Notes under the pieces: generated by a model | What the model saw: the letters and a program-made list of their open reading frames with translations, nothing else | The model's database searches: none | Told to the model about the DNA's origin: nothing | Assembly (NCBI GenBank): GCA_035623075.1 | Contig: DASPUC010000024.1 | Span: 62,001-126,000 of the forward strand | DNA: 64,000 bases | Reading direction: 5' to 3' | Origin: Nitrospiraceae bacterium | GTDB taxonomy: Bacteria; Nitrospirota; Nitrospiria; Nitrospirales; Nitrospiraceae | Position numbers and translations under genes: made by a program | Shown here: positions 33,703 through 45,289 of the stretch, in pieces | How the letters are laid out: each line of letters begins with the position of its first letter | Position numbering within the stretch: the stretch's first letter is position 1

Positions 33703-34410
33703 TTAGGTCAGTCTCGGAATTTCCGCCTTTACCTCATCCTTCGGCTTTGGTTTGTACCCCATTCGATCCAATACTTTCATGATCCGCGTTTTCAGCCGAT
33801 CGTCGGCTTCGGCAAGAGCGGTGGCGAGGGGTTCGACCGCGGGCTTTCCGATTTTCCGGATAATTTCGGTGACAGATTGTCGCAGTTCATCTTCCTCTGA
33901 CACCAACAGTGGTACGAGAGACGGGACTGCTGAACCACCGATCTTGATCAAGGAATCGTAGGCCCGCTGCCGGACGTCGCCCACATCATCCGTCAACGCC
34001 TCGACCAACGGTTCTACGGCGCGCGTTTCTTTGAGTTCACCAAGGATTTCCGCCGCATATTTCCGATTGAGCCAATGGGGATCCTTGAGATCCAACAGCA
34101 TGGCGTCGGCCTTGGCGGCGTTGGGGTCCTTCGCACGGATCTTGAAGCTTTTTGCAATCCGGCGCCCGCCTTCCTCCACGACGCGGATCGTCGCACCATC
34201 TCCCACTTTGATCTGTTTCAGATCTTCAAGCGCTTCTTCAGCGACATCCAACAGAACGGTTTTCCCGTCGTAGGCCAACAGTTCGACCTCGAGTTGCTTC
34301 GCCTCAGGATTGACGGCCACAACCCGTTCCGTCACCAAGTTGAATCCGTCCTTCTTGAGGCCCCCCTTGGGACCAATTTGAATGAGTTTCGCTGGAGCTT
34401 CGTCCGCCAT
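33703..34410 (-). CDS. HEAT-repeat protein with N-terminal beta domain (HEAT-1)
   Basis: 235 residues. The first 95 are strand-rich (VTERVVAVNPEAKQLEVELL, VGDGATIRVVEEGG) and unlike HEAT. From about residue 100 there are four to five E-Z-type HEAT repeats (WLNRKYAAEILGELKETRAVEPLVEALTD and onwards). The end VLDRMGYKPKPKDE resembles the ends of the other HEAT proteins here (LG-W/Y-x-P). No signal peptide. Last gene of the HEAT-4/3/2/1 run, 32 bp after HEAT-2. Presumably a protein-binding scaffold; function unknown. Confidence 0.85.
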   Translation of the reverse strand: MADEAPAKLIQIGPKGGLKKDGFNLVTERVVAVNPEAKQLEVELLAYDGKTVLLDVAEEALEDLKQIKVGDGATIRVVEEGGRRIAKSFKIRAKDPNAAKADAMLLDLKDPHWLNRKYAAEILGELKETRAVEPLVEALTDDVGDVRQRAYDSLIKIGGSAVPSLVPLLVSEEDELRQSVTEIIRKIGKPAVEPLATALAEADDRLKTRIMKVLDRMGYKPKPKDEVKAEIPRLT

Positions 34411-34442
34411 GATGTGGTTCCTTTACGTCCAAAAAGAGATGA

Positions 34443-35204
34443 TTACTTTGCTTTCCACCCCAAACTTGCCAACACCCCTTCGACCGTCTCCTGCACCATC
34501 GTGTTTTCGTCTTCTAGCAACGGAAGCAATGGATCGATCGCCTGCTTCGCGCCCAATCGCGCAAGCGACTCCGCCGCGTTTCGACGCACCAGCCAGTCCT
34601 CGTCCTTGAGCGATTCGATCAACGGCGGGATCCCCCGTTGATCGCCAATCTTACCCAATGCCTCTGCTGCATGCCGCCGCACCATCCAATTGTTACCCAT
34701 CAAGCCGTCGATTAACGCGTCCACCGCCCTCGTGTCACCGATTTTTTTCAGCACCCTCGCGACATCCTCACGTAATGTACTGTCGGTCAGGGCCTCGATC
34801 AACCCCGGTACGGCACGGGAGTCGCCGATCCGCTCGAGCGCCCACACAGCGGCGGTCCTCACCGCTCCGTCTTTATCCCTCAGCGCCACAACCAACGGAT
34901 CCACCCCACGCGGGTCCTTGAGCTTTCCTAGTCCCGATGCCGCTTGTTCACGAACGGCCCATTCGTCATCTGTGAGGGCCTCGATCAATGGATCGACTAC
35001 CGAAGGCCCGATTCGGACGACGGCACTCGTCGCCGCTTCTCGAATCAACATATCCTCGTCCGCCATCAGGCCGATGAGCTGAGGCACAGCTTCCTCACCG
35101 ATTTGTCCGAGACTGGCAATGGCATGGTCGCGGAGTGCCTCGTTGTCGTCGCGCAAGGCCGAAATCAACTGTTCGATGCGATCCGCCCGGGTCTCGTCAT
35201 TCAT
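34443..35204 (-). CDS. HEAT-repeat protein (HEAT-2)
   Basis: 253 residues from ATG 35204, made almost wholly of about eight regular 31-residue E-Z HEAT repeats. A typical unit is WAVREQAASGLGKLKDPRGVDPLVVAL. The end is VEGVLASLGWKAK, sharing the LGW cap with HEAT-4 and HEAT-5. The start overlaps the HEAT-3 stop by 8 nt, so the two are coupled. Cytoplasmic by sequence. E-Z HEAT repeats are found in phycobilin lyases and in many scaffold proteins; no lyase-specific residues were identified. Confidence 0.88.
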   Translation of the reverse strand: MNDETRADRIEQLISALRDDNEALRDHAIASLGQIGEEAVPQLIGLMADEDMLIREAATSAVVRIGPSVVDPLIEALTDDEWAVREQAASGLGKLKDPRGVDPLVVALRDKDGAVRTAAVWALERIGDSRAVPGLIEALTDSTLREDVARVLKKIGDTRAVDALIDGLMGNNWMVRRHAAEALGKIGDQRGIPPLIESLKDEDWLVRRNAAESLARLGAKQAIDPLLPLLEDENTMVQETVEGVLASLGWKAK

Positions 35205-36297
35205 CGTGGTGCGATCCTTCCTGACTCGCCGTCTGCTCTCCGTCGAGGGCTGCGAGTTTATCGGCAATCAAGCCGGCATTATACGCCACCAAACCGTCAC
35301 GGTCGGTCCTCAGCCGTTCGAAGAGGTCCCGATGCGGGCGGAGAACATCCACATCCTTCACCTTCGCGAGCGCCTCCATGGCATAGACCCGGAGCGGACG
35401 GATGGGAATCGCCTCAATGTATAATTCAGCCGGCCGAGCATCCCCGATCAGTCCCAGCGACTTTAAGGCTAATTCTTTAACCCCGGTATCCTTGTCGACT
35501 TCCAGCCGTTTCATCAGAGGACCGACGGCGCGGACGTCGCCGATTTTCCCCAGCAAATCAGCCGCCGCTTCGCGCACCAGCCAATCGTCGTCTTCAAGAT
35601 ACTCGATCAAAATTTCGACGCTGGGCCGACCGATGTTGAGGAGCTCGATCACCGTCGCCATGCGGGCTTCCTCCCGTTCGCTGGCTCCTTCGACATCGCG
35701 CAGAGCGTTGAACCGTTGATCGATACATTCGCGAATGGCTCCCAATTTCTTGAGCGTGCGCACGGCCGTCTCGCGCACCGCCAGCTGTCCCATCGCGTCG
35801 ATGAACGCATCCGCGGAACGGGGATCGAGGAGTTGTTCGAGCATCGTGGCCGCCAAGACCTGCGCCTCCGGGTCGTGGTGTTTCAGCATCTCACACAGTG
35901 AGGGGACCGCATTGGGAATCGCTCCTAATAACTGTGAGGTCACCGTCCGCACCCGCTCGTCCTTTGCTTCATACAACAAGGACACCAGTGCCGACGCAGT
36001 GTCTCGGTCCAACACTCCCGCCATTTGCTCCAATGCCGACGCACCGGCTCGCTGAACCTGTTCGTCGGTTTCGCGGAGTAACTTGACCAACGGCACCCCG
36101 GCCTGCGGATCCTTCACGCGCGCCAACATGGCGGCCGCCTCTACCTTCAGGGCTGGAACACCTGTTTCCACCGCATGCACGAGAGCGTGGACCGCCCGCG
36201 GCCCACCAGACAAGCAGGCAGCTGTGGCCCGCATCCGCCGCCAGTCTTCTTCATGGACCAACTCGCCGACCAGCGTCTCGATGCTTTCTTTCGACAT
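35197..36297 (-). CDS. HEAT-repeat protein (HEAT-3)
   Basis: 366 residues from ATG 36297. About ten HEAT-like units, less regular than HEAT-2, with long acidic and basic helices (ALRDVEGASEREEARMATVIELLNIG near residue 215). The C terminus is different from the other members: DRDGLVAYNAGLIADKLAAL, then an acidic/His tail, and no LGW cap. A 98-bp gap precedes it after HEAT-4. No signal or membrane segment. Function unknown. Confidence 0.85.
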   Translation of the reverse strand: MSKESIETLVGELVHEEDWRRMRATAACLSGGPRAVHALVHAVETGVPALKVEAAAMLARVKDPQAGVPLVKLLRETDEQVQRAGASALEQMAGVLDRDTASALVSLLYEAKDERVRTVTSQLLGAIPNAVPSLCEMLKHHDPEAQVLAATMLEQLLDPRSADAFIDAMGQLAVRETAVRTLKKLGAIRECIDQRFNALRDVEGASEREEARMATVIELLNIGRPSVEILIEYLEDDDWLVREAAADLLGKIGDVRAVGPLMKRLEVDKDTGVKELALKSLGLIGDARPAELYIEAIPIRPLRVYAMEALAKVKDVDVLRPHRDLFERLRTDRDGLVAYNAGLIADKLAALDGEQTASQEGSHHDE

Positions 36298-36395
36298 AGC
36301 ATTCGCTCCGGCGCGAAGCACAGGGCGAGGGAACAAGAGCGAAAATCAGTTTTCTCACCTGGACCTTTTCGCTTCGTCCCTCTGGCCGATCCAGC

Positions 36396-37478
36396 TCAGA
36401 CACGACCAGGCCGCCAGCCCACCTTTGTCAACGTGTCCTTGACGTGGTACCGAAGATTGTCATCCGCTTCCTGCGCTAACATCGTCAGCAACGGTGCGAT
36501 CACGACATTGCCGAATCGCACCAGTGCCGCAGCCGCATCCGCGCGAGTGACCGTATGACGCATGGCATCGAGCAGTGTCGGCACTGCTGCTTCATCCCCT
36601 ATCACGCCTAATGCTCGGGCTGCTGCACCCTTGGCGACCATTTCTTCATCCCAATGATCTCCACAGCCATCGACTGCCCGGGAAACTTCCGGTCGATCGA
36701 CGCCGTTCAGCACATTGATCAGGACCGGAACTGCGCGTCGATCGCCGATCTGCCCGAGAGATTCCACGGCGAGCGGCCGCAAGCCCGGCTCTTTGATGAC
36801 CACAAACAAAAAATCGACAGCTCTGGCATCCCCGATCTGACCAAGCGCGCGGACTGCGTCTTCGCGGATAGCTGCATCGCGATCGTTGAAAAGTGCCGAT
36901 AATAACGGTTCGACTGCCGACGCTGATCGTGTCTTCCCCAAGGCTTCCACGGCATGGAGCCGCACAAGCCACTCGGAATGAGTCAGCGCATTCAAGAGAG
37001 AGGGGATCGCAGCATCGCCGATCGCCGCCAGCGCTGCAGACGCCTCCTCGCGAACCGCCTTGACCTTATCTTGGAGTAACGGAATCAATGGTTCAATAGA
37101 TTCGAGGGGTTTGATGCGTCCCAGGGCCTTCGCCGCATGCATGCGAACGATCCAGTCAGGGCTGTTGAGTGCCGTGATTAACGGAGCCGCCACGCGCGCA
37201 TCGGCAATGACAGCCAAGGCCGCTGATGCCGCTTCCTGGATAGACAGGTCACGATCGTTGAGACAGTTCGCCAGGGCTGTCACCGCCGACTCGCCCAGAA
37301 CTGTTAGAGCGCCGATTGCCGCCTCGCGTACTGCCCGGTCGGAATCGCGCAGGAGCGTGACCAGCGGTCCCACGGCCCGGGGATCGCGAAGGGCACCGAG
37401 TGCGGTCGCGGCATCCTCCCGGATCGCCCAGTCCTCATCCTGGAGCGCCGCAATCTGTTCGGCAACCGCGTCTCCCAT
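36396..37478 (-). CDS. HEAT-repeat protein (HEAT-4)
   Basis: 360 residues, about eleven E-Z HEAT repeats of nearly uniform length (AIREDAATALGALRDPRAVGPLVTLLRDSD is the first complete one). One unit near residue 260 is interrupted by an insertion containing VDGCGDHWDEE, which puts Cys, His and acidic residues on a loop. The end is VKDTLTKVGWRPGRV, with the shared LG/VG-W cap. First gene of the minus-strand HEAT run and divergent from the beta-propeller gene across 219 bp. Confidence 0.87.
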   Translation of the reverse strand: MGDAVAEQIAALQDEDWAIREDAATALGALRDPRAVGPLVTLLRDSDRAVREAAIGALTVLGESAVTALANCLNDRDLSIQEAASAALAVIADARVAAPLITALNSPDWIVRMHAAKALGRIKPLESIEPLIPLLQDKVKAVREEASAALAAIGDAAIPSLLNALTHSEWLVRLHAVEALGKTRSASAVEPLLSALFNDRDAAIREDAVRALGQIGDARAVDFLFVVIKEPGLRPLAVESLGQIGDRRAVPVLINVLNGVDRPEVSRAVDGCGDHWDEEMVAKGAAARALGVIGDEAAVPTLLDAMRHTVTRADAAAALVRFGNVVIAPLLTMLAQEADDNLRYHVKDTLTKVGWRPGRV

Positions 37479-37582
37479 GGTCCTCCAAATGTCGGATCGA
37501 GTACCCTAACACAGCCATTTTCCAGGGGTCAACGGAAGGGCTGTCGATGACTCATCGCGGAGATTTTGAGCCATTCATTCAA

Positions 37583-37612
37583 TTGACAGCCCCTGTACCC
37601 CCTCGCTACCAT
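37583..37612 (+). promoter_or_regulatory. Candidate promoter of the beta-propeller gene
   Basis: A perfect TTGACA (37583-37588), 18 bp, and TACCAT (37607-37612). Predicted start near 37619, leader about 80 nt. The same 219-bp region must also drive HEAT-4 on the other strand. Confidence 0.45.
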
Positions 37613-37697
37613 CACGTTCCCAATTCACTGGCTCCCTGATGATAACCCGCTGTCAGATAACGCAACCCCTACAAACTTTCTTGTAATGGAGGTCCCG

Positions 37698-38948
37698 ATG
37701 ATTACGACGAATTTCGTTCTGAATAGAAATGTCCTGACGATCGTGCTCCTCCTAATCGGGTGCCTCGTCCCGTTCGGGACTTCAGCAGGGGCCTATGAGG
37801 TCTGGCTAACAGATCAATCAGACACGGGGAAAGAAATCGGAGGCTTACTGTATGTCTATGACGGGGCCCAACTGGCGGCCAATCCGACAACGGCAAAACC
37901 GACCGTGACGATCGATTTAGCCGGGGACGTCAACAAGCTTTGTGAAGAGGCAACCAAGAAAGCCGTCCGTCGTCCCCACATGCTGTTCTTCACCAAGGAT
38001 CAGTCCCATGCCATCGTCTCGTTCCTCAGCGGGCACGTGCTCTTCATGGACGCAGCCACCAAGAAGCCTGAAGCCTGCCTCTCCATGGGAAAGAACGTCC
38101 ATGCGGCCTGGCCGACGCCCGATCAGAAGATGACCATCGCAGCCAACATCGCTGAAAAAAAGTTCATCCGCATCTGGACAGACTATGCAGCACATAAGTT
38201 TACCTTCGATGCTGAGAAGGATGTGATGAATCTGGCCTTGTTGGAAAGCGGTGAGCGACCGGATACCGCGCCCATTTGTCCGATCACCGAGGCATCCAGC
38301 AAGTATGCGTTCATCACGCTTCGGGGCGGCGGCTTGCTCGTCGTGGACGTCACGAGCACGCCCATGAAGGTGGTCGCAACCTTGGACAATAACCAGATCC
38401 ATCCAGCCGGATGCGGCGGAGTCCAAGTCGATAGCACGATGTACATCAACTCCGGCGGAGGCTGGCCGATTGCACCGCTCTCCTACGACGTCTATGCGTT
38501 GGATCTGTCGGACTTGCCGAAGTCTGTCTCAGCAAAATTGGTGTCGCAGCGCGATCAGAAGTTCGCCGATTCCCATGGCATGGTTGCGGTCGGCAGGTAT
38601 GTGTGGAGCGCGGATCGCGCGGGAAACGATATCGAGATTATCGACACGCTTACCAACTTGAGTGTCAACTCCGTCGATTTGGTAACGGATGCCAACAAGG
38701 ACCCGGCGCCTGATTTGATGGATGTGTCACCCGACGGCCAGTATGTCTTCGTCGGCTTCCGTGGTCCCACCCCGTTGACCGGTAATGACAAGACCGTTAA
38801 CAACGCAAAAGGAACTATCCCGGGGATTGGCGTCGTGCATGTGGATGCCGGCGGAAAAGTCGGTTATTACAAAGGGCAGGCGGCGATCACCAACATGAAG
38901 GACGGGAAAGAAACGGCGGACAATCACGGCGTCGCGGTCCGAAAGTAG
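37698..38948 (+). CDS. Exported YncE-like beta-propeller protein
   Basis: 416 residues from ATG 37698, which has GGAGGT 4 nt upstream (an in-frame ATG at 37686 lies on that site). Signal peptide: hydrophobic 14-30. The mature protein consists of WD/YVTN-like blades, for example DLMDVSPDGQYVFVGFRG near residue 350 and YAFITLRGGGLLVVDVTSTP near 210. A seven-bladed periplasmic propeller of the YncE/lactonase/NirF superfamily is likely; heme or metal ligands are not evident. Surrounded on both sides by HEAT genes on the opposite strand. Confidence 0.78.
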   Translation: MITTNFVLNRNVLTIVLLLIGCLVPFGTSAGAYEVWLTDQSDTGKEIGGLLYVYDGAQLAANPTTAKPTVTIDLAGDVNKLCEEATKKAVRRPHMLFFTKDQSHAIVSFLSGHVLFMDAATKKPEACLSMGKNVHAAWPTPDQKMTIAANIAEKKFIRIWTDYAAHKFTFDAEKDVMNLALLESGERPDTAPICPITEASSKYAFITLRGGGLLVVDVTSTPMKVVATLDNNQIHPAGCGGVQVDSTMYINSGGGWPIAPLSYDVYALDLSDLPKSVSAKLVSQRDQKFADSHGMVAVGRYVWSADRAGNDIEIIDTLTNLSVNSVDLVTDANKDPAPDLMDVSPDGQYVFVGFRGPTPLTGNDKTVNNAKGTIPGIGVVHVDAGGKVGYYKGQAAITNMKDGKETADNHGVAVRK

Positions 38949-38950
38949 TC

Positions 38951-38971
38951 GTTGGCTTTCAGCCGTCAGCC
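38951..38971 (-). repeat. Heptamer repeat locus A
   Basis: Read on the minus strand, two units GGCTGAC and GGCTGAA plus one diverged unit, in strict 7-nt phase, beginning 3 nt after the beta-propeller stop codon. Confidence 0.5.
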
Positions 38972-39050
38972 GCGGACAAGGAAAAGATCACAGCCGTCAC
39001 GAGATGATTCTTGCCGACAGGTGATGGCTGACTGCTTCCCGGCGAGAGTA

Positions 39051-40409
39051 TCATCGAGCCAAATCGCCTGACGGACCAAAGCGACCGGTCTCGCCCAGCG
39101 GGCGATCGACACGGAGATTGTCGGCCTGGCTGGAGTCTGCCGTGTAATCCTCCGGCGGCAGAGTCCACCCGAGTTTCTCCAGTGTTTCAAGGACCAACTG
39201 TCTCAACGCATCCTTGGCCGTTAAACGGACCGAGGCATAGGAGAGGACTCGCTCACCTTCCGCACCGATCTCCGAGGCTTTGGGATCGTAGAGAAACGAG
39301 ATCAACGGCTCAATCGCCGCATCACCGATGACTGCCAGAGCCGCCGCCGCTTTTTCTCGCAAGACACCATCTTTCAACAGCATGATCAAGTCGGGAATCA
39401 CTCGCGGATCGCGGAATTGACCGAGCGCCGTCGCCGCCGCTTCCTTGATGAACGCATCCTCGCTGACGATGCACCCGGGCGTCGGCGTGCCATCCTGCCT
39501 GATCCCCTTCCCTTTTAACGCATTGAGCACGGGCGGCAACGCACGAGCATCGCCGATCATGCCCAGCGAGGCGATCGCATGCCGTTTGACCGCGCCGTCT
39601 TTCATGGCTTCGATGAGCGCATCAATCGCTCGCGGATCGCCGATTTGCCCCAACGCAATCGTCGCGTCTTCCCGAACAGCACGATCCGGATCTTTGAGCA
39701 TCGCAATGAGCGCATCGACCACCCTCGGTTCGCGCACCCATGTGCGGCCGATTTGATAGTCAGTCGTCATCCCGCCAAGGGCTCGCGCCGCGTGACATCG
39801 CACGACGAAGTCTTTGTCTTTCAATGTCTCGATCAGCGGATCCACCGACGCCTGGCCGATATAGACGAGGGCCGTGCCGGCCGTCTCGCGCACAATCTTG
39901 GATGAATCACGGAAGAGTTTGATCAAGGCCGGCACAGCGGCGGAATCACCGATCTTGCCTAGGGCCTCAGCCGCCGCGCTCTTCACCGCTCCATCACGAT
40001 CACGGCAGGCGACGATTAATGCCTCAACGGCCTTCCGGTCCTTGAGTTCGCCGCACGTCTTTGCCGCATGTTCCCGGACTCGCCACCGGTCGTCTTTCAT
40101 CACTGCGATCATGCGATCGAGGACCGCAGGCTCCATCCTGACGGCGGCGTCGACGGCTTGGTTGCGAACTTCCATGATCGGATCGTTGAACAACGCGATC
40201 ACGGCCTCCAAGGCCTTGGGTCCACCGATCTTGGCCACACCTAATCCGGCATGGGCCCGCACCGACCAATAGTCATCGCTACAGGCGCTGACCAGTGCCT
40301 CGAGACTCTTCGGATCGCCGAGCTCAGCCAACGTCTTTGCTGCTTCCTCGCGGGTGGCATCATCGACGTCTTCCAACGCTTCCAGTAAATCGTCGAGCGT
40401 GTGTGTCAT
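39051..40409 (-). CDS. HEAT-repeat protein (HEAT-5)
   Basis: 452 residues from ATG 40409 (a GTG 15 nt upstream also fits). About thirteen E-Z HEAT repeats. Two repeats carry insertions: one with TTDYQIGRTWVREPR near residue 215, and one with RQDGTPTPGCIVSEDAF near residue 310, the latter holding the only non-repeat cysteine. The end has LETLEKLGWTLPPEDY, the same LGW cap as HEAT-2/4, plus an acidic tail of about 35 residues. It lies 15 bp downstream of the exported protein at 40425 and forms a unit with the phosphodiesterase-like gene. Confidence 0.86.
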   Translation of the reverse strand: MTHTLDDLLEALEDVDDATREEAAKTLAELGDPKSLEALVSACSDDYWSVRAHAGLGVAKIGGPKALEAVIALFNDPIMEVRNQAVDAAVRMEPAVLDRMIAVMKDDRWRVREHAAKTCGELKDRKAVEALIVACRDRDGAVKSAAAEALGKIGDSAAVPALIKLFRDSSKIVRETAGTALVYIGQASVDPLIETLKDKDFVVRCHAARALGGMTTDYQIGRTWVREPRVVDALIAMLKDPDRAVREDATIALGQIGDPRAIDALIEAMKDGAVKRHAIASLGMIGDARALPPVLNALKGKGIRQDGTPTPGCIVSEDAFIKEAAATALGQFRDPRVIPDLIMLLKDGVLREKAAAALAVIGDAAIEPLISFLYDPKASEIGAEGERVLSYASVRLTAKDALRQLVLETLEKLGWTLPPEDYTADSSQADNLRVDRPLGETGRFGPSGDLAR

Positions 40410-40424
40410 CGTCACGTTCTCCAC

Positions 40425-40838
40425 TCAGTATTGATAGTCTCGTTGCCCGCCATGCGGGTAGGTCCGCGAGCAGCGAATCGTCAACGTCTGTGTTCCGCGT
40501 CCACCGACACATTGGTCGAGGGAGGCGGCATACTCTACTTTCCCCTCCAAATTCACTCCGAATGGAAAATCAAACGTAAAGCTGACGAACTTGTATTTCC
40601 CCGGTTTGAGCTTGAGGGCACGGGCTTCCGTCGTCTTGTAGGCATCCAACGATTCAGGATCCGAGGCGTAAATGGAGGGAGTGACGCCGGGAACCTGCCA
40701 CCACGTGGGTGGCTCCAGAACTGTCGCATCGATTGTGATGACATGTTCCTGCAGGTAGGCTGCCGGCGGACCGGCAATCGCCGAAGGACCCATCATTGTA
40801 GTCAGGAGAAGTCCGATTCCCGGTACGACCCATCGCAT
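40425..40838 (-). CDS. Small exported protein of unknown function
   Basis: About 137 residues from ATG 40838 (ATG 40865 is in frame and possible). Signal peptide ending SAIAG. The mature part has PPTWWQVPGV, LKPGKYKFVSFTFDFPFGVNLEGKVEY and two cysteines near the C terminus (DQCVGGRGTQTLTIRC), suggesting a beta-sandwich with one disulfide. Family not recognised. Sits between the phosphodiesterase-like gene (33 bp) and HEAT-5 (15 bp), so probably one transcript. Confidence 0.72.
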   Translation of the reverse strand: MRWVVPGIGLLLTTMMGPSAIAGPPAAYLQEHVITIDATVLEPPTWWQVPGVTPSIYASDPESLDAYKTTEARALKLKPGKYKFVSFTFDFPFGVNLEGKVEYAASLDQCVGGRGTQTLTIRCSRTYPHGGQRDYQY

Positions 40839-40871
40839 CACATGCTCGTCAATAAGGCATTGCATGACGCA

Positions 40872-41897
40872 TTACTGTTTTGTAGATGGCGAGATTGGAG
40901 CCGCAGAGGCTGTTTGAAAGATTTCTTCAATGGCATGACTTTCCCACTCCGTATGGGTCTCCAGCCCCAACGTCCGCATCACCGTAGCCCCTGTATCCAA
41001 AATCGAAACCGGTTGGTGAATCGCATACCCATGCTTGATCCCTATGCCTGAAGCAATCCAGGGAAGCAGTGGAACCGTGCCGTCAGCCTGTTCTCCGCCG
41101 GCGTCTTTGCCTTCCGCGCTCAAGGAGGTCACAAACACCGTCGTGCGTTTCAGCATGCCCTGTTCTTTGTAAATATCCAACACCGACGCCATGGCATTGT
41201 CCACGGTCTTCAAGGCTTGTCGGTATTCCTTGGATCCCCACCCATGGGCAACACCCACTCGTCCCGCCTCGGGCAGATGCACGATGAGAAAGTGCGGGAG
41301 CGATTGGATCGCGTGACCGTATCCTTCGCCGCTCGCGGCTTTCTTGAAATAGGCTCGGATGTAGGAGACGATCCGGTCCGGATTGCACTCCGGCTTCAAG
41401 GGGCCACACATTTGATAATCGGTGTAGGGTTCCGGTCGGGCGATCTGATACAGAGATTCGTCCATCAAAAAGATGGCGCTGTCGCGCCCGCCGCTCAAAT
41501 CGAGGTAATCAAAGACGCTGGGAGCCCGTGGATAGCCTCGGCTGAAGTCGAAGGTGTTCCAGGAAACTCCGTGCTTATCGACCGGCATTCCGGTGATCAA
41601 CGACACCATGGTCGGGAGTCGCAACGCCGGTTTGACTCCCGTGGCCGACCATGTCACAGCCCCCTGCTTGATCAGACGACTCATCGTCGGCATGGTGCCG
41701 CCCTTGAGAGAATCCTGTCCGAACCCTTCGAGCACGAACAGCATGACGTAGTCGGCCGGGCTCGTCGTGGAGGTCTCATGAGAGGCCGGGGCAACTGCGA
41801 GGGCGACATTGAGCGAGGTGCCTGGGCACAAAAAGACAAGCAACACCGGGAGGATAGCCGCCATTCGCCACTGAGCATATCGTGATGGAGGATTCAC
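40872..41897 (-). CDS. Exported phosphodiesterase/sulfatase-superfamily protein with altered metal site
   Basis: 341 residues from GTG 41897 (AGGA upstream) or 330 from ATG 41864; signal peptide in residues 12-36. The fold is that of type I phosphodiesterase/nucleotide pyrophosphatase. The nucleophile Thr is kept in LRLPTMVSLITGMP near residue 95. The ligand positions are changed, however: LFVLEGFG where the family has a DG, HLPEAGRVGVAHGWG where it has D-x-x-G-H, and TSLSAEGK where it has SDHG. It may be inactive or use another metal set. First gene of the unit with the 40425 protein and HEAT-5. Confidence 0.72.
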   Translation of the reverse strand: MNPPSRYAQWRMAAILPVLLVFLCPGTSLNVALAVAPASHETSTTSPADYVMLFVLEGFGQDSLKGGTMPTMSRLIKQGAVTWSATGVKPALRLPTMVSLITGMPVDKHGVSWNTFDFSRGYPRAPSVFDYLDLSGGRDSAIFLMDESLYQIARPEPYTDYQMCGPLKPECNPDRIVSYIRAYFKKAASGEGYGHAIQSLPHFLIVHLPEAGRVGVAHGWGSKEYRQALKTVDNAMASVLDIYKEQGMLKRTTVFVTSLSAEGKDAGGEQADGTVPLLPWIASGIGIKHGYAIHQPVSILDTGATVMRTLGLETHTEWESHAIEEIFQTASAAPISPSTKQ

Positions 41898-42086
41898 AAC
41901 GATGTCCTGGCCCCAGAAAAGAATTTGTACCTTAACACGCTATTTTCCGCCAAGGCAAGGCGACCCAGGCCCGCCAGCAGGCCCTGGCGCCCGGACAACG
42001 CTGATGCTATGCTGAGATTATTCGTGTCCTTGGAAGTCAACGAAAGACGCTCTGGTGCGTCAGTTCTATCATGGAAGGAACTGGTG

Positions 42087-43379
42087 ATGCCTCGTTCCCC
42101 GATAGATCTGATACCCGTCCCCGCCTATCGGCCCATCGTGACATGTGGGGTCTTCGCTGTATTGACCATGGCCCCCTTTCTCCCTGCTCTCTCATCCCCG
42201 GCGGTCGCGGAAGTCCGGGTCGTCAACGCTCAGGGCGAACACCGCATGGGCGACCGGGATACGAGAGAAGACGCGATCCGACTGGCCACTGAAGCGGCGA
42301 AGCGGAATGCACTGGAGCAGGTTGCCACCTACCTGGAAAGTGTTACGGTGGTGGAGGGAATGGATGTAACGAAAGATGAAATCCGCACTTACACAGCTGG
42401 GCTCGTGCTCGTCCTGGATCAACGAGTGAACACCACGCTTGATGGAGACACGATCGTGATCAAGGTCGATCTTGTGACACAGGTTGATACGGAAGAAGTG
42501 GCCCAGGCCATCGTCGCACTGCGGGAAAACGAAGATGCACGCCATCAGCTTGTGGCTCTTCGGCAGGAGATGGACCAACTGCAGGGTCAGCTGGCCGCCG
42601 CCAATCAAGCACTGGAGCGGGCCACCTCGGCTGAACAGGTTCAGCAGGCTTCCCAAGAACGCCAAGACCTGCTGAATCGTGCACAATCAGACGCCATGGT
42701 TGCCCAAGCCTGGACGGACTGGGTGGTCGTGTCACCGGTTGTGTATCCCTACCCGGGGATGGGTTTAGCACAGACGCAGGCGCTGTTGAATGTCGCGCGC
42801 ACCCTGTACCCGACGAGTCCGCATGTTCCGGTCGCTCAGCAAGTTATCACTGCGCAACAACCATCATCAGTGATTGCGCCGGCTCCGGTCTTGACTCCAC
42901 CGCCCACAACGGGACCAGTGCCGCATACGTTGAATGAAATCTCGCACACGACTCAGACGACTCCCCCGCACATCGGGAACCAACCAATCACGAGTCAGCT
43001 ACCCACTGCTCCGATCCCGTCAGGTCCGCGTAACCTCACCGATGTGCGTCAGTTAAATCCATTGGTGCCACCGTCACAAAACGGGGCTCCGTCGACACCG
43101 CAGCAGACTGTCCCACCAAGCTCTCGCTCGGGGCAGGCATTGCAGCAGTTTCTGCAACCACCGTCCACATCCGGAGGGCAGGCACAGGCCGGGCTGCCTC
43201 CAATTGCCCGACGGTTGCCTCCGACGATCAACCAACTTCATCCACCCTTGCTGCATCAGGCACCCCGCATGCCCTACCATGTCGGCCCTCGATCCTTCGG
43301 TGGCGGCAGAGGCTTTGGAGGAGGACGAGGTTGGGGAGGCGGTCGAGGTGGCGGCGGGCATGGAGGGGGGAGGAGGTAA
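42087..43379 (+). CDS. Exported LPP20/FlgT-like protein with Gly/Arg tail
   Basis: 430 residues from ATG 42087 (AAGGA upstream). Signal peptide ending AVA near residue 41. Domain 1 (45-145) has the pattern of LPP20/FlgT N-terminal domains: AIRLATEAAKRNALEQVATYL, then TAGLVLVLDQRV and strands. A coiled coil follows (about 150-200, Gln/Glu/Leu-rich), then a Pro/Thr/Gln-rich region, and finally 25 residues of GGGRG repeats ending in HGGGRR. It overlaps no other gene; the next gene of similar type starts 4 bp after its stop. Probably periplasmic or outer-membrane associated. Confidence 0.72.
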   Translation: MPRSPIDLIPVPAYRPIVTCGVFAVLTMAPFLPALSSPAVAEVRVVNAQGEHRMGDRDTREDAIRLATEAAKRNALEQVATYLESVTVVEGMDVTKDEIRTYTAGLVLVLDQRVNTTLDGDTIVIKVDLVTQVDTEEVAQAIVALRENEDARHQLVALRQEMDQLQGQLAAANQALERATSAEQVQQASQERQDLLNRAQSDAMVAQAWTDWVVVSPVVYPYPGMGLAQTQALLNVARTLYPTSPHVPVAQQVITAQQPSSVIAPAPVLTPPPTTGPVPHTLNEISHTTQTTPPHIGNQPITSQLPTAPIPSGPRNLTDVRQLNPLVPPSQNGAPSTPQQTVPPSSRSGQALQQFLQPPSTSGGQAQAGLPPIARRLPPTINQLHPPLLHQAPRMPYHVGPRSFGGGRGFGGGRGWGGGRGGGGHGGGRR

Positions 43380-43382
43380 TCG

Positions 43383-43955
43383 ATGAACCGGGTGATCCGA
43401 CTGGTGAGCATCTGCTGCAGCATGACAGGAATACTTGGTGTGATGCCGGCCACGACATCAGCTGAGGACGGAGCCCCGGCCGTTCGCCAACATGCCGAAC
43501 AGCCGTTTCAGGAGATGAAACAGAGCGAGCGAGGCGGGAAGGCGCCTGTCGGTGCAAAGGGGGGGGCGACCATCGCCGAGACCAGCAGCCACTACTCCCC
43601 CGACCAATACTTGATCGGCAAGGGTCAGGGAGATCTCTCAAAGGGCAAGAACGTCTGCCAGCGGGTGTCGGAGTTGTCAGCTCGGACGGATCTGGCAAAG
43701 CAGATCCGCGTGATGGTGAAGGAACATATGGTCGATCGTGTGCGGCAGCAGGCCGATGGGAAAGAATCCGAACAGGACATCGAACTCACTCGCGAAGAAA
43801 TCGTCCAGGAATATCTGCAGGGCGTCAAGATCGTCGATCGCCAGGTCGATGAAGCAAACAACACCTGCAGCGCCTCGGCTGTCATGCCGAAGAGTCAAAT
43901 CCAGCCGAAGCCGGCCCCGGACCAGCCCGAACCGATTTCTACAATCCTCCACTAA
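43383..43955 (+). CDS. Exported LPP20-like protein
   Basis: 190 residues with a signal peptide (hydrophobic 5-22). From residue 75 it reads YLIGKGQGDLSKGKNVCQRVSELSARTDLAKQIRVMV, which resembles the LPP20 domain, where small proteins refold a K/R-rich helix against a sheet. Later there is the QEYLQGVKIVDRQV strand. Two cysteines are in the mature part. The family often occurs in tandem, and here the neighbour 4 bp upstream shares the fold. Role unknown; LPP20 proteins are outer-membrane lipoproteins in Helicobacter, but no lipobox is clear here. Confidence 0.68.
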   Translation: MNRVIRLVSICCSMTGILGVMPATTSAEDGAPAVRQHAEQPFQEMKQSERGGKAPVGAKGGATIAETSSHYSPDQYLIGKGQGDLSKGKNVCQRVSELSARTDLAKQIRVMVKEHMVDRVRQQADGKESEQDIELTREEIVQEYLQGVKIVDRQVDEANNTCSASAVMPKSQIQPKPAPDQPEPISTILH

Positions 43956-44020: not shown

Positions 44021-45289
44021 ATGCCGAACGAGAACAACTTTCAACACGATGAGCTCTCACGGAAGAGTCCTGGTGACCGGCTCGCTACAGCCGAGCTGGC
44101 GACGGGGATGCAGCCCGACTCTCCTGCCTGGGCCGAGGCGATGGCGCAGTGCGGCATGCAGTTGTCGCAGGCTGGTGTTAAAGCGATCGTCTTCCTGCAC
44201 GGGTCCATCATCGGCACCGACGTCTTCGGGATGCAGCGGCTCGACGAAGCCGGCGGACTCAAGCGCGGCTACTCGCGTGGCGTGTCTGGCGTCGATGCCC
44301 TGCTCGCCGCAATGCGCGAAGGCAGTAATGGTATCCCTCCACTCCCCGGCGGAATAAAACCTCCGCTGACCAACGATGACGCGACCAAGAAGCTGCTCGA
44401 CGATCAACTCGGCGACGCGGGCAATTTCACAAACGCCGCTGTCTTGCAGTTTCAGAAAGCAATCAACAGGAGCGCGGCGAAGCCCCTCACCTGTATCCGA
44501 TACCTCTGGTCGTCTGAACACCATCATCTCGGACGCGCATTGGCGGCTGTCCGGTTCTTGGACGACCTGCGGCAACTTTGCGAGAGTCAAAAATTCTCGA
44601 CTGGAGACAGACTTCTCGTTGAAGCTCACGGACAAGCGGGCTTGGTCATAGCGCTCGCGTCTAATCTGCTTTGTCCCAGCCCTATCGTGGGCCGGCCGAA
44701 GCTCTTTGCACTTCTTTCAGGCTATGCCAAGCAGATCGGACTAACAGACGTCACGACCTCTCTGACGAAAATCGAGTCGTCGTTGGCGTCGGGGTCTTTG
44801 CTGAACGGTGCCGTACTCGATGCAGTCACATTCGGTACTCCGGTCCGCTACGGCTGGGATCCGTTGGGGCTCGGGAAACTGCTGCATGTCGTGAATCACC
44901 GCAACCTACGCACCGACGGCAAGATCTGGCTCTCAAAGATGGAACTTCCTCAAATCACAATGGAGATGCCGATCGCCTGGGGCGGCGACTACGTGCAGGA
45001 ACTGGCCGTAGCGGGAAGCGATGCCATGCCGATGACCGAAGCGGCGAAAGCCGCGAGCAAAGCCGTGTGGGAACTGGTTGAACCCTATGACGGGTTCGAG
45101 CGTTGGCTGGAATGCGCGAGACGCGCCGTGCGATTCCCCAGTGAAGGTCGTTGTTTGTTAGTTGATTATAAGGATTCGACCGGCTCCACCAATCCGCGTG
45201 ACCATTACTACGGCCATGCAGCGTATACCCGCCTGAATGCGATGCTCTTCAACACGACGGAGATCGTCCGCGCGCTTTACAAAGCCTAG
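44021..45289 (+). CDS. Alpha/beta-hydrolase-like protein lacking the nucleophile serine
   Basis: 422 residues, no signal peptide. An oxyanion-type strand AIVFLHGSIIG near residue 55 and a nucleophile-elbow-like LLVEAHGQAGLVIALAS near residue 210 look like a lipase core. The usual GHSxGG is AHGQAG here, so Ser is Gly. A late RDHYYGHAAY near residue 397 could hold the third-position His. Either a pseudo-enzyme or a fold match by chance. The stop codon overlaps that of the convergent gene at 45286 (shared CTAG). Confidence 0.6.
   Translation: MPNENNFQHDELSRKSPGDRLATAELATGMQPDSPAWAEAMAQCGMQLSQAGVKAIVFLHGSIIGTDVFGMQRLDEAGGLKRGYSRGVSGVDALLAAMREGSNGIPPLPGGIKPPLTNDDATKKLLDDQLGDAGNFTNAAVLQFQKAINRSAAKPLTCIRYLWSSEHHHLGRALAAVRFLDDLRQLCESQKFSTGDRLLVEAHGQAGLVIALASNLLCPSPIVGRPKLFALLSGYAKQIGLTDVTTSLTKIESSLASGSLLNGAVLDAVTFGTPVRYGWDPLGLGKLLHVVNHRNLRTDGKIWLSKMELPQITMEMPIAWGGDYVQELAVAGSDAMPMTEAAKAASKAVWELVEPYDGFERWLECARRAVRFPSEGRCLLVDYKDSTGSTNPRDHYYGHAAYTRLNAMLFNTTEIVRALYKA

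Follow-up and report, generated by a model that had tools for sequence, protein, structure and literature searches.

Proteins of Helicobacter, Vibrio and Campylobacter are among the nearest known counterparts of the two proteins analysed here. The portion of PMC12222027 drawn on here describes Lpp20-fold relatives that assemble into disks and rings of the flagellar motor, among them the SHS2-like ring proteins FlgT of Vibrio (PDB code: 3w1e) and FlgP of Campylobacter, and ties ring formation to a beta-hairpin inserted between the SHS2 helix and the second strand. Helicobacter pylori Lpp20 (HP1456; PDB code: 5ok8; Pfam PF02169) is reported, in the portion of PMC11756786 used here, to interact with the motor accessory protein FapH and weakly with itself, and its deletion is reported there to leave flagella and motility unchanged. 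The window, a stretch of 64,000 nucleotides from a nitrifying Nitrospiraceae bacterium, carries a pair of adjacent genes, hereafter P1 and P2, whose products are predicted to belong to the same fold class. We read the pair, with a probability of roughly 0.4, as a non-flagellar periplasmic assembly or tether pair of which P1 bears an accessory basic tail; the anatomy of the proteins, their pairing and their non-flagellar nature are held with high confidence.

P1 (430 amino acids; 42087–43379 including the stop codon, coding 42087–43376) and P2 (190 amino acids; 43383–43955 including the stop codon, coding 43383–43952) are real open reading frames on the forward strand, separated by 3 bp, and both have relatives in other genomes. 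A Shine-Dalgarno-like GGAAGGA (42073–42079) lies 7 nt before the P1 start, and a second such site, AGGAGG (43371–43376), which is also the final two codons of P1 (Arg-Arg), precedes the P2 start by 6 nt. The short gap between the two genes and the placement of this AGGAGG within P1 suggest that they are translationally coupled.

By reading, each protein begins with a hydrophobic stretch, and the P1 sequence and its relatives predict a signal peptide (42087–42212) with its cleavage site after PAVA and before EVRVV. With a lenient pattern, a signal-peptidase-I-type (AxA-type) site precedes the core in 76 of 77 scorable P1 relatives; three of the 80 named relatives were unscorable because the mature start was not located. 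No lipobox with Cys was seen on reading P1 and P2 of the window, and three of 72 relatives of P2 show a lipobox-like pattern, in upstream sequence that is possibly in part untranslated. Two cysteines of P2, C92 and C162, are both conserved in 71 of 72 relatives (two matches below 80 bits were excluded), the sole miss (L111) being cut by a contig end. This conservation fits with an oxidising compartment, and P2 is possibly a compact, disulphide-bonded domain. From these sequence signals P1 and P2 are both probably exported, and the adjacent exported pair put forward in the original prediction is upheld.

The AlphaFold2 model of P1, built with 44 relatives, is modular. An N-terminal domain (residues 43–134; 42213–42488) with beta-alpha-alpha-beta-beta topology and mostly high pLDDT is followed by a coiled coil (residues 135–215; 42489–42731) and by a helical hairpin (residues 224–256; 42756–42854) that is also conserved in the alignment of relatives. 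Beyond the hairpin the chain is predicted to be disordered, comprising a Pro/Gln-rich linker (residues 257–403; 42855–43295; pLDDT mostly below 55) and a Gly/Arg-rich tail (residues 404–430; 43296–43376). The mean pLDDT is 68 because of this disorder, and 141 residues reach at least 90. The coiled coil and the Pro/Gln-rich linker claimed for P1 from the sequence are both found in the model. In the P2 model the order of elements resembles that of the P1 N-domain.

Foldseek ranked H. pylori Lpp20 first for both the P1 N-domain (E 3.2e-3) and P2 (E 1.3e-4). The VIA comparison with the same structure gave Z 9.4 with rmsd 3.1 over 93 aligned residues for the P1 N-domain, in a list where two matches to the helices of P1 outrank Lpp20, and Z 10.6 with rmsd 4.9 over 102 aligned residues for P2. 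H. pylori Tip-alpha (PDB codes: 2wcq, 3guq, 3vnc, 3gio, 2wcr) also scores in VIA (Z 8.3–8.7 for the P1 N-domain and 6.5–6.8 for P2), but no sequence match to it was found and its architecture differs. P2 matches the Pfam LPP20 profile at 27.5 bits against a cut-off of 25.9, and 25 of 25 P2 relatives match it at E up to 0.1; a PDB sequence search with P2 found nothing. P1, in contrast, does not match LPP20 at E up to 1 and has no LPP20 or FlgT match in Pfam or NCBIfam, and neither family is among the 25 commonest listed for 44 P1 relatives. Nor do the P1 and P2 profiles recognize each other (hhalign probability 0.9%), so that the common domain is a statement on predicted folds only. The LPP20-type domain originally proposed for both proteins therefore holds for P2 by profile and for both by predicted fold, while by profile P1 belongs to neither LPP20 nor FlgT. 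P1 further departs from Lpp20 in its additional coiled coil, linker and tail, and both window proteins do so in showing no lipobox and in being conserved together with two flanking genes, c2 and c3.

Several other matches were set aside. A weak match of P1 to the type VI secretion protein VipA (E 0.025; 0.01 in NCBIfam) falls largely over the coiled coil and is attributed to chance. Matches of the P1 helices to ESCRT-III/CdvB and others were under the VIA level that is meaningful for helices, and TPR matches in a PDB search with the P1 alignment were due to TPR-bearing paralogs included in it rather than to P1 itself. A phage origin was rejected, there being no PHROG match.

Across 295 genomes of the phylum, a P1 relative was found in 116 and a P2 relative in 71. 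All but one of the latter (70 of 71) belong to the family of the window, Nitrospiraceae, in which 79 genomes were examined and nine have no P2. The original prediction had proposed a search for the same pair in other Nitrospira-like genomes. Among the 70 P2-bearing genomes of the family, 67 have the two genes side by side on the same strand, the place of P1 being that of the best match per genome. In G254, one of the exceptions, the locus is divided between two contigs; the others, G149 and G155, keep P2 and have lost P1 from the locus, their P1 match being a paralog elsewhere; a weak 43-residue P1 match remains at the G155 locus. P2 is therefore not strictly dependent on P1. In 67 of the 70 genomes c2 and P1 are oriented divergently, and c3 lies no more than 2.5 kb behind P2 in 65.

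A second count was based on 80 named loci from records of Nitrospira (including N. moscoviensis), Nitrospiraceae, Nitrospirae or Nitrospirota. In N. moscoviensis, P1 is accompanied at its locus by P2, c2 and c3. After omission of eight loci with less than 600 bp behind P1, P2 adjoins P1 in 67 of 72. The five misses comprise L113 and L114, where a TPR paralog was picked, L142, where 1111 bp separate P2 from P1, and two P1 paralogs with no P2 behind them, L157 and L169. Two records titled Nitrosospira group with Nitrospira sequences in the P1 tree. The P1-P2 pair is a conserved, Nitrospiraceae-specific unit; a literature search for Nitrospira together with LPP20 or FlgT returned nothing relevant.

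The genes that flank the pair are themselves conserved. Divergent from P1 lies c2 (40872–41897, reverse strand), an exported member of the NPP/alkaline-phosphatase superfamily that matches Pfam PF01663 (E 2.2e-18) and solved NPPs, with relatives in 96 of the 295 genomes. Compared with bacterial NPP chains, the positions that we take to be catalytic in NPPs (the first-motif Asp, the Thr nucleophile and the SDHG motif) are altered: the Asp is replaced by Glu in 29 of 29 sequences, the Thr by Arg in 26 of 29 (the three that keep Thr all belong to a second family within the order), and SDHG is not kept. These substitutions suggest that c2 is probably non-cleaving, a probable pseudoenzyme. Downstream of P2 and in the same direction is c3 (44021–45289, forward strand), a 422-amino-acid protein with no recognizable signal peptide, a mean column identity of 77% and no relative found in Pfam or the PDB. 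By eye, its AHG(Q/H)AG motif, present in 29 of 29 sequences, resembles the nucleophile elbow of an alpha/beta-hydrolase without the Ser. Relatives of c3 occur in 95 of the 295 genomes, where the gene usually either follows P2 or is oriented divergently to c2. On the reverse strand, c2 is adjoined by c4 (40425–40865), a small, putatively exported protein of 146 amino acids identified from its open reading frame and by locus comparison, and the conserved divergent arm includes a HEAT-repeat protein (39051–40424), assigned by profile and locus comparison. Five successive HEAT-repeat genes occupy 33703–40424 of the window on the reverse strand, interrupted by one beta-propeller-like gene on the opposite strand (37686–38948).

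In 25 genomes c2 and c3 are present without P2, and in all 23 of these that have both on one contig the two genes are divergent, 164–2289 bp apart. Such genomes belong either to the family of the window or to this second family, and P1-P2 are found between c2 and c3 only in the main Nitrospiraceae genera. Two small genomes, G105 (2.0 Mb) and G161 (1.8 Mb), have c2 and c3 with, respectively, a 59-residue P1 remnant and no P1 match. The divergent c2/c3 pair is probably older than the P1-P2 insertion, and the simplest reading is that P1-P2 were placed within it and later lost in some reduced genomes; loss of P1-P2 in the second family, rather than gain in the first, is a possible alternative. In three genomes of one genus, the space between c2 and c3 holds an exported protein that appears PstS-like by eye in place of P1-P2 (L176 4699–5796; L177 3840–4898; L178 3254–4303).

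The genome of the window encodes four further P1 relatives, one on contig C33 that carries a Gly/His tail, one on contig C48 whose end is basic, and two that terminate in TPR repeats (C24:325708 and C29:12200). The latter two share the order of related N-domain and coiled coil with P1 at 29–30% identity, and differ in that TPR repeats replace the linker and tail. The C33 paralog (L086 7811–9127) ends in regularly spaced His within Gly, and its close relatives are the L157 and L169 proteins. A single P2 paralog (L090 7132–7752) in the same genome has a lipobox-like start and lies directly behind two genes labelled by eye as RND-type transporters. In Nitrospira sp. RSF5 (G272; L066 6629–7846 and L129), one open reading frame joins P2 to a P1 that has neither linker nor tail. 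By comparison with RSF12, a single 275-bp deletion explains the fusion; since this may be a real deletion or an assembly error, it is not counted as proof that P1 and P2 interact.

The tail of P1 invited the most specific claims. It is present as described, with a length of 27 rather than 25 residues (18 Gly, 5 Arg, 1 His, 2 Phe and 1 Trp). All four Gly codons are used and the DNA contains no tandem repeat, so that repeat expansion is rejected as its origin and the tail is taken as a feature at the level of the protein; the count of a Gly-rich DNA pattern in the genome of the window (three sites versus five in a control) was uninformative. A filter on the last 30 residues (at least 30% Gly, at least four R/K/H, at most two D/E) was passed by 29 of 76 P1 family members and by none of 693 other open reading frames from the 80 related loci. 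In a quickly built tree of 83 P1 sequences, four of them unscored since a contig end cuts the gene, 31 of 79 rows have the tail and 48 do not, and the label changes at least eight times. The presence of the tail follows clades: it is below threshold throughout one clade of 34 rows (support 99) and another of seven (support 100). Both of these retain P2 and c3, and many members of the larger one keep a short Gly-Gly-Arg-like end. With so many relatives having a reduced tail, it is not essential to the core role.

This reduction is compatible with the somewhat unlikely explanation that the tail is functionless low-complexity filler after the linker, with its final codons shaped by the purine-rich ribosome-binding site of P2. 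Indeed, the final Arg codons of P1 overlap the apparent Shine-Dalgarno site of P2, the Gly codons of the 29 tails lean towards purines (GGA 150, GGC 126, GGG 105, GGT 69), and 18 of the 29 tails contain GGAGG within their final 18 nt, a sequence absent from the tail ends of L157 and L169, the paralogs with no P2 behind. A purine-rich end would, however, account for the final few residues only, whereas the Gly/basic composition is maintained over many divergent sequences and in the C33 paralog, and hardly any acidic residues occur (13 D/E over the 29 tails, where the filter itself allowed no more than two in each). The GGAGG pattern thus suggests that part of the tip possibly arose as a side effect of coupling; the remainder would be an optional basic arm.

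Conserved Arg in a Gly context is expected of RGG/RG elements. The window copy, with its Gly/Arg composition and aromatic residues, resembles such an element, and the original prediction accordingly called the tail RGG-like. Over the 29 tails, however, Arg (110) is exchanged with His (59) and Lys (10) and there are only 22 RGG triplets; together with the loss of the tail in two clades and its overlap with a Shine-Dalgarno site, this speaks against the label. It is highly doubtful that binding of nucleic acid, whether extracellular DNA or RNA, is the main job of P1, since the tail is missing from many relatives and the protein is predicted to be exported. From its sequence and evolution the tail appears to be an optional extra and not an RNA-binding signature, and a putative role in polyanion binding or surface assembly is possible. 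The abundance of His, the second commonest basic residue of the tails, and its regular spacing in the C33 paralog would suit metal-ion binding, of which Gly/His-rich tails may be capable; with a single His in the tail of the window copy and no metal genes seen beside P1-P2, we regard this as quite improbable.

A ring in the flagellar motor, as formed by FlgT or FlgP, is the function that the fold class might first bring to mind, and P2 aligns with FlgT with Z 5.1; for P1, FlgT is not among the rows listed in the VIA second look at the Foldseek results. In both models, however, the stretch between the domain helix and the second strand is helical, where the part of PMC12222027 cited above would lead one to expect a beta-hairpin in a ring former. 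FlgH occurs in 68 of the 79 family genomes, and FlgI was searched for in 18 of them. Five genomes have P2 with neither FlgH nor FlgI: that of the window (G000, 99.93% complete), G077, G149, G155 and G167, of which G149 and G155 have P2 only. Conversely, G060, G143 and G218 have FlgH and FlgI and no P2. This distribution in both directions, together with a neighbourhood in which no flagellar genes were seen, leads us to reject a flagellar role as extremely improbable, and with it the FlgT-like affinity first suggested for the pair; P1-P2 do not depend on a flagellum.

For the periplasmic assembly or tether pair that we favour, self- or hetero-assembly is the likeliest core function, given that relatives of the Lpp20 fold form rings and disks and that P1 has a coiled coil. 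Through their Lpp20-type domains and the coiled coil, P1 and P2 would come together in an envelope complex, from which the flexible arm of P1 would reach out and tether the complex to a negatively charged component of the envelope or matrix; the basic, Gly-rich tip would provide an optional contact driven by composition. That P1 and P2 assemble and act as a tether, and to what kind of partner, is what we infer for proteins whose export, fold and disorder are predicted. The part of PMC4070959 cited here describes a wide periplasm and extracellular polymer in sections of Nitrospira japonica. A periplasm of that width would suit a long P1 arm, which is speculation on our part.

The neighbouring genes invite a larger and decidedly unlikely picture, that of an envelope module specific to Nitrospirales in which two ancient, divergently arranged enzymes with altered catalytic positions (c2 exported, c3 perhaps cytoplasmic) would sense or scaffold rather than cleave. 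Into this the main Nitrospiraceae would have inserted the Lpp20-fold assembly pair, whose arm would span the periplasm as far as the matrix or outer envelope, giving a multi-part, non-flagellar machine. The c2-P1-P2-c3 block is a compact target for localization and genetics, and a conserved Lpp20-fold pair outside the flagellum suggests another envelope role for a fold that the portions of the papers cited here describe in rings of the flagellum and in a lipoprotein of Helicobacter.
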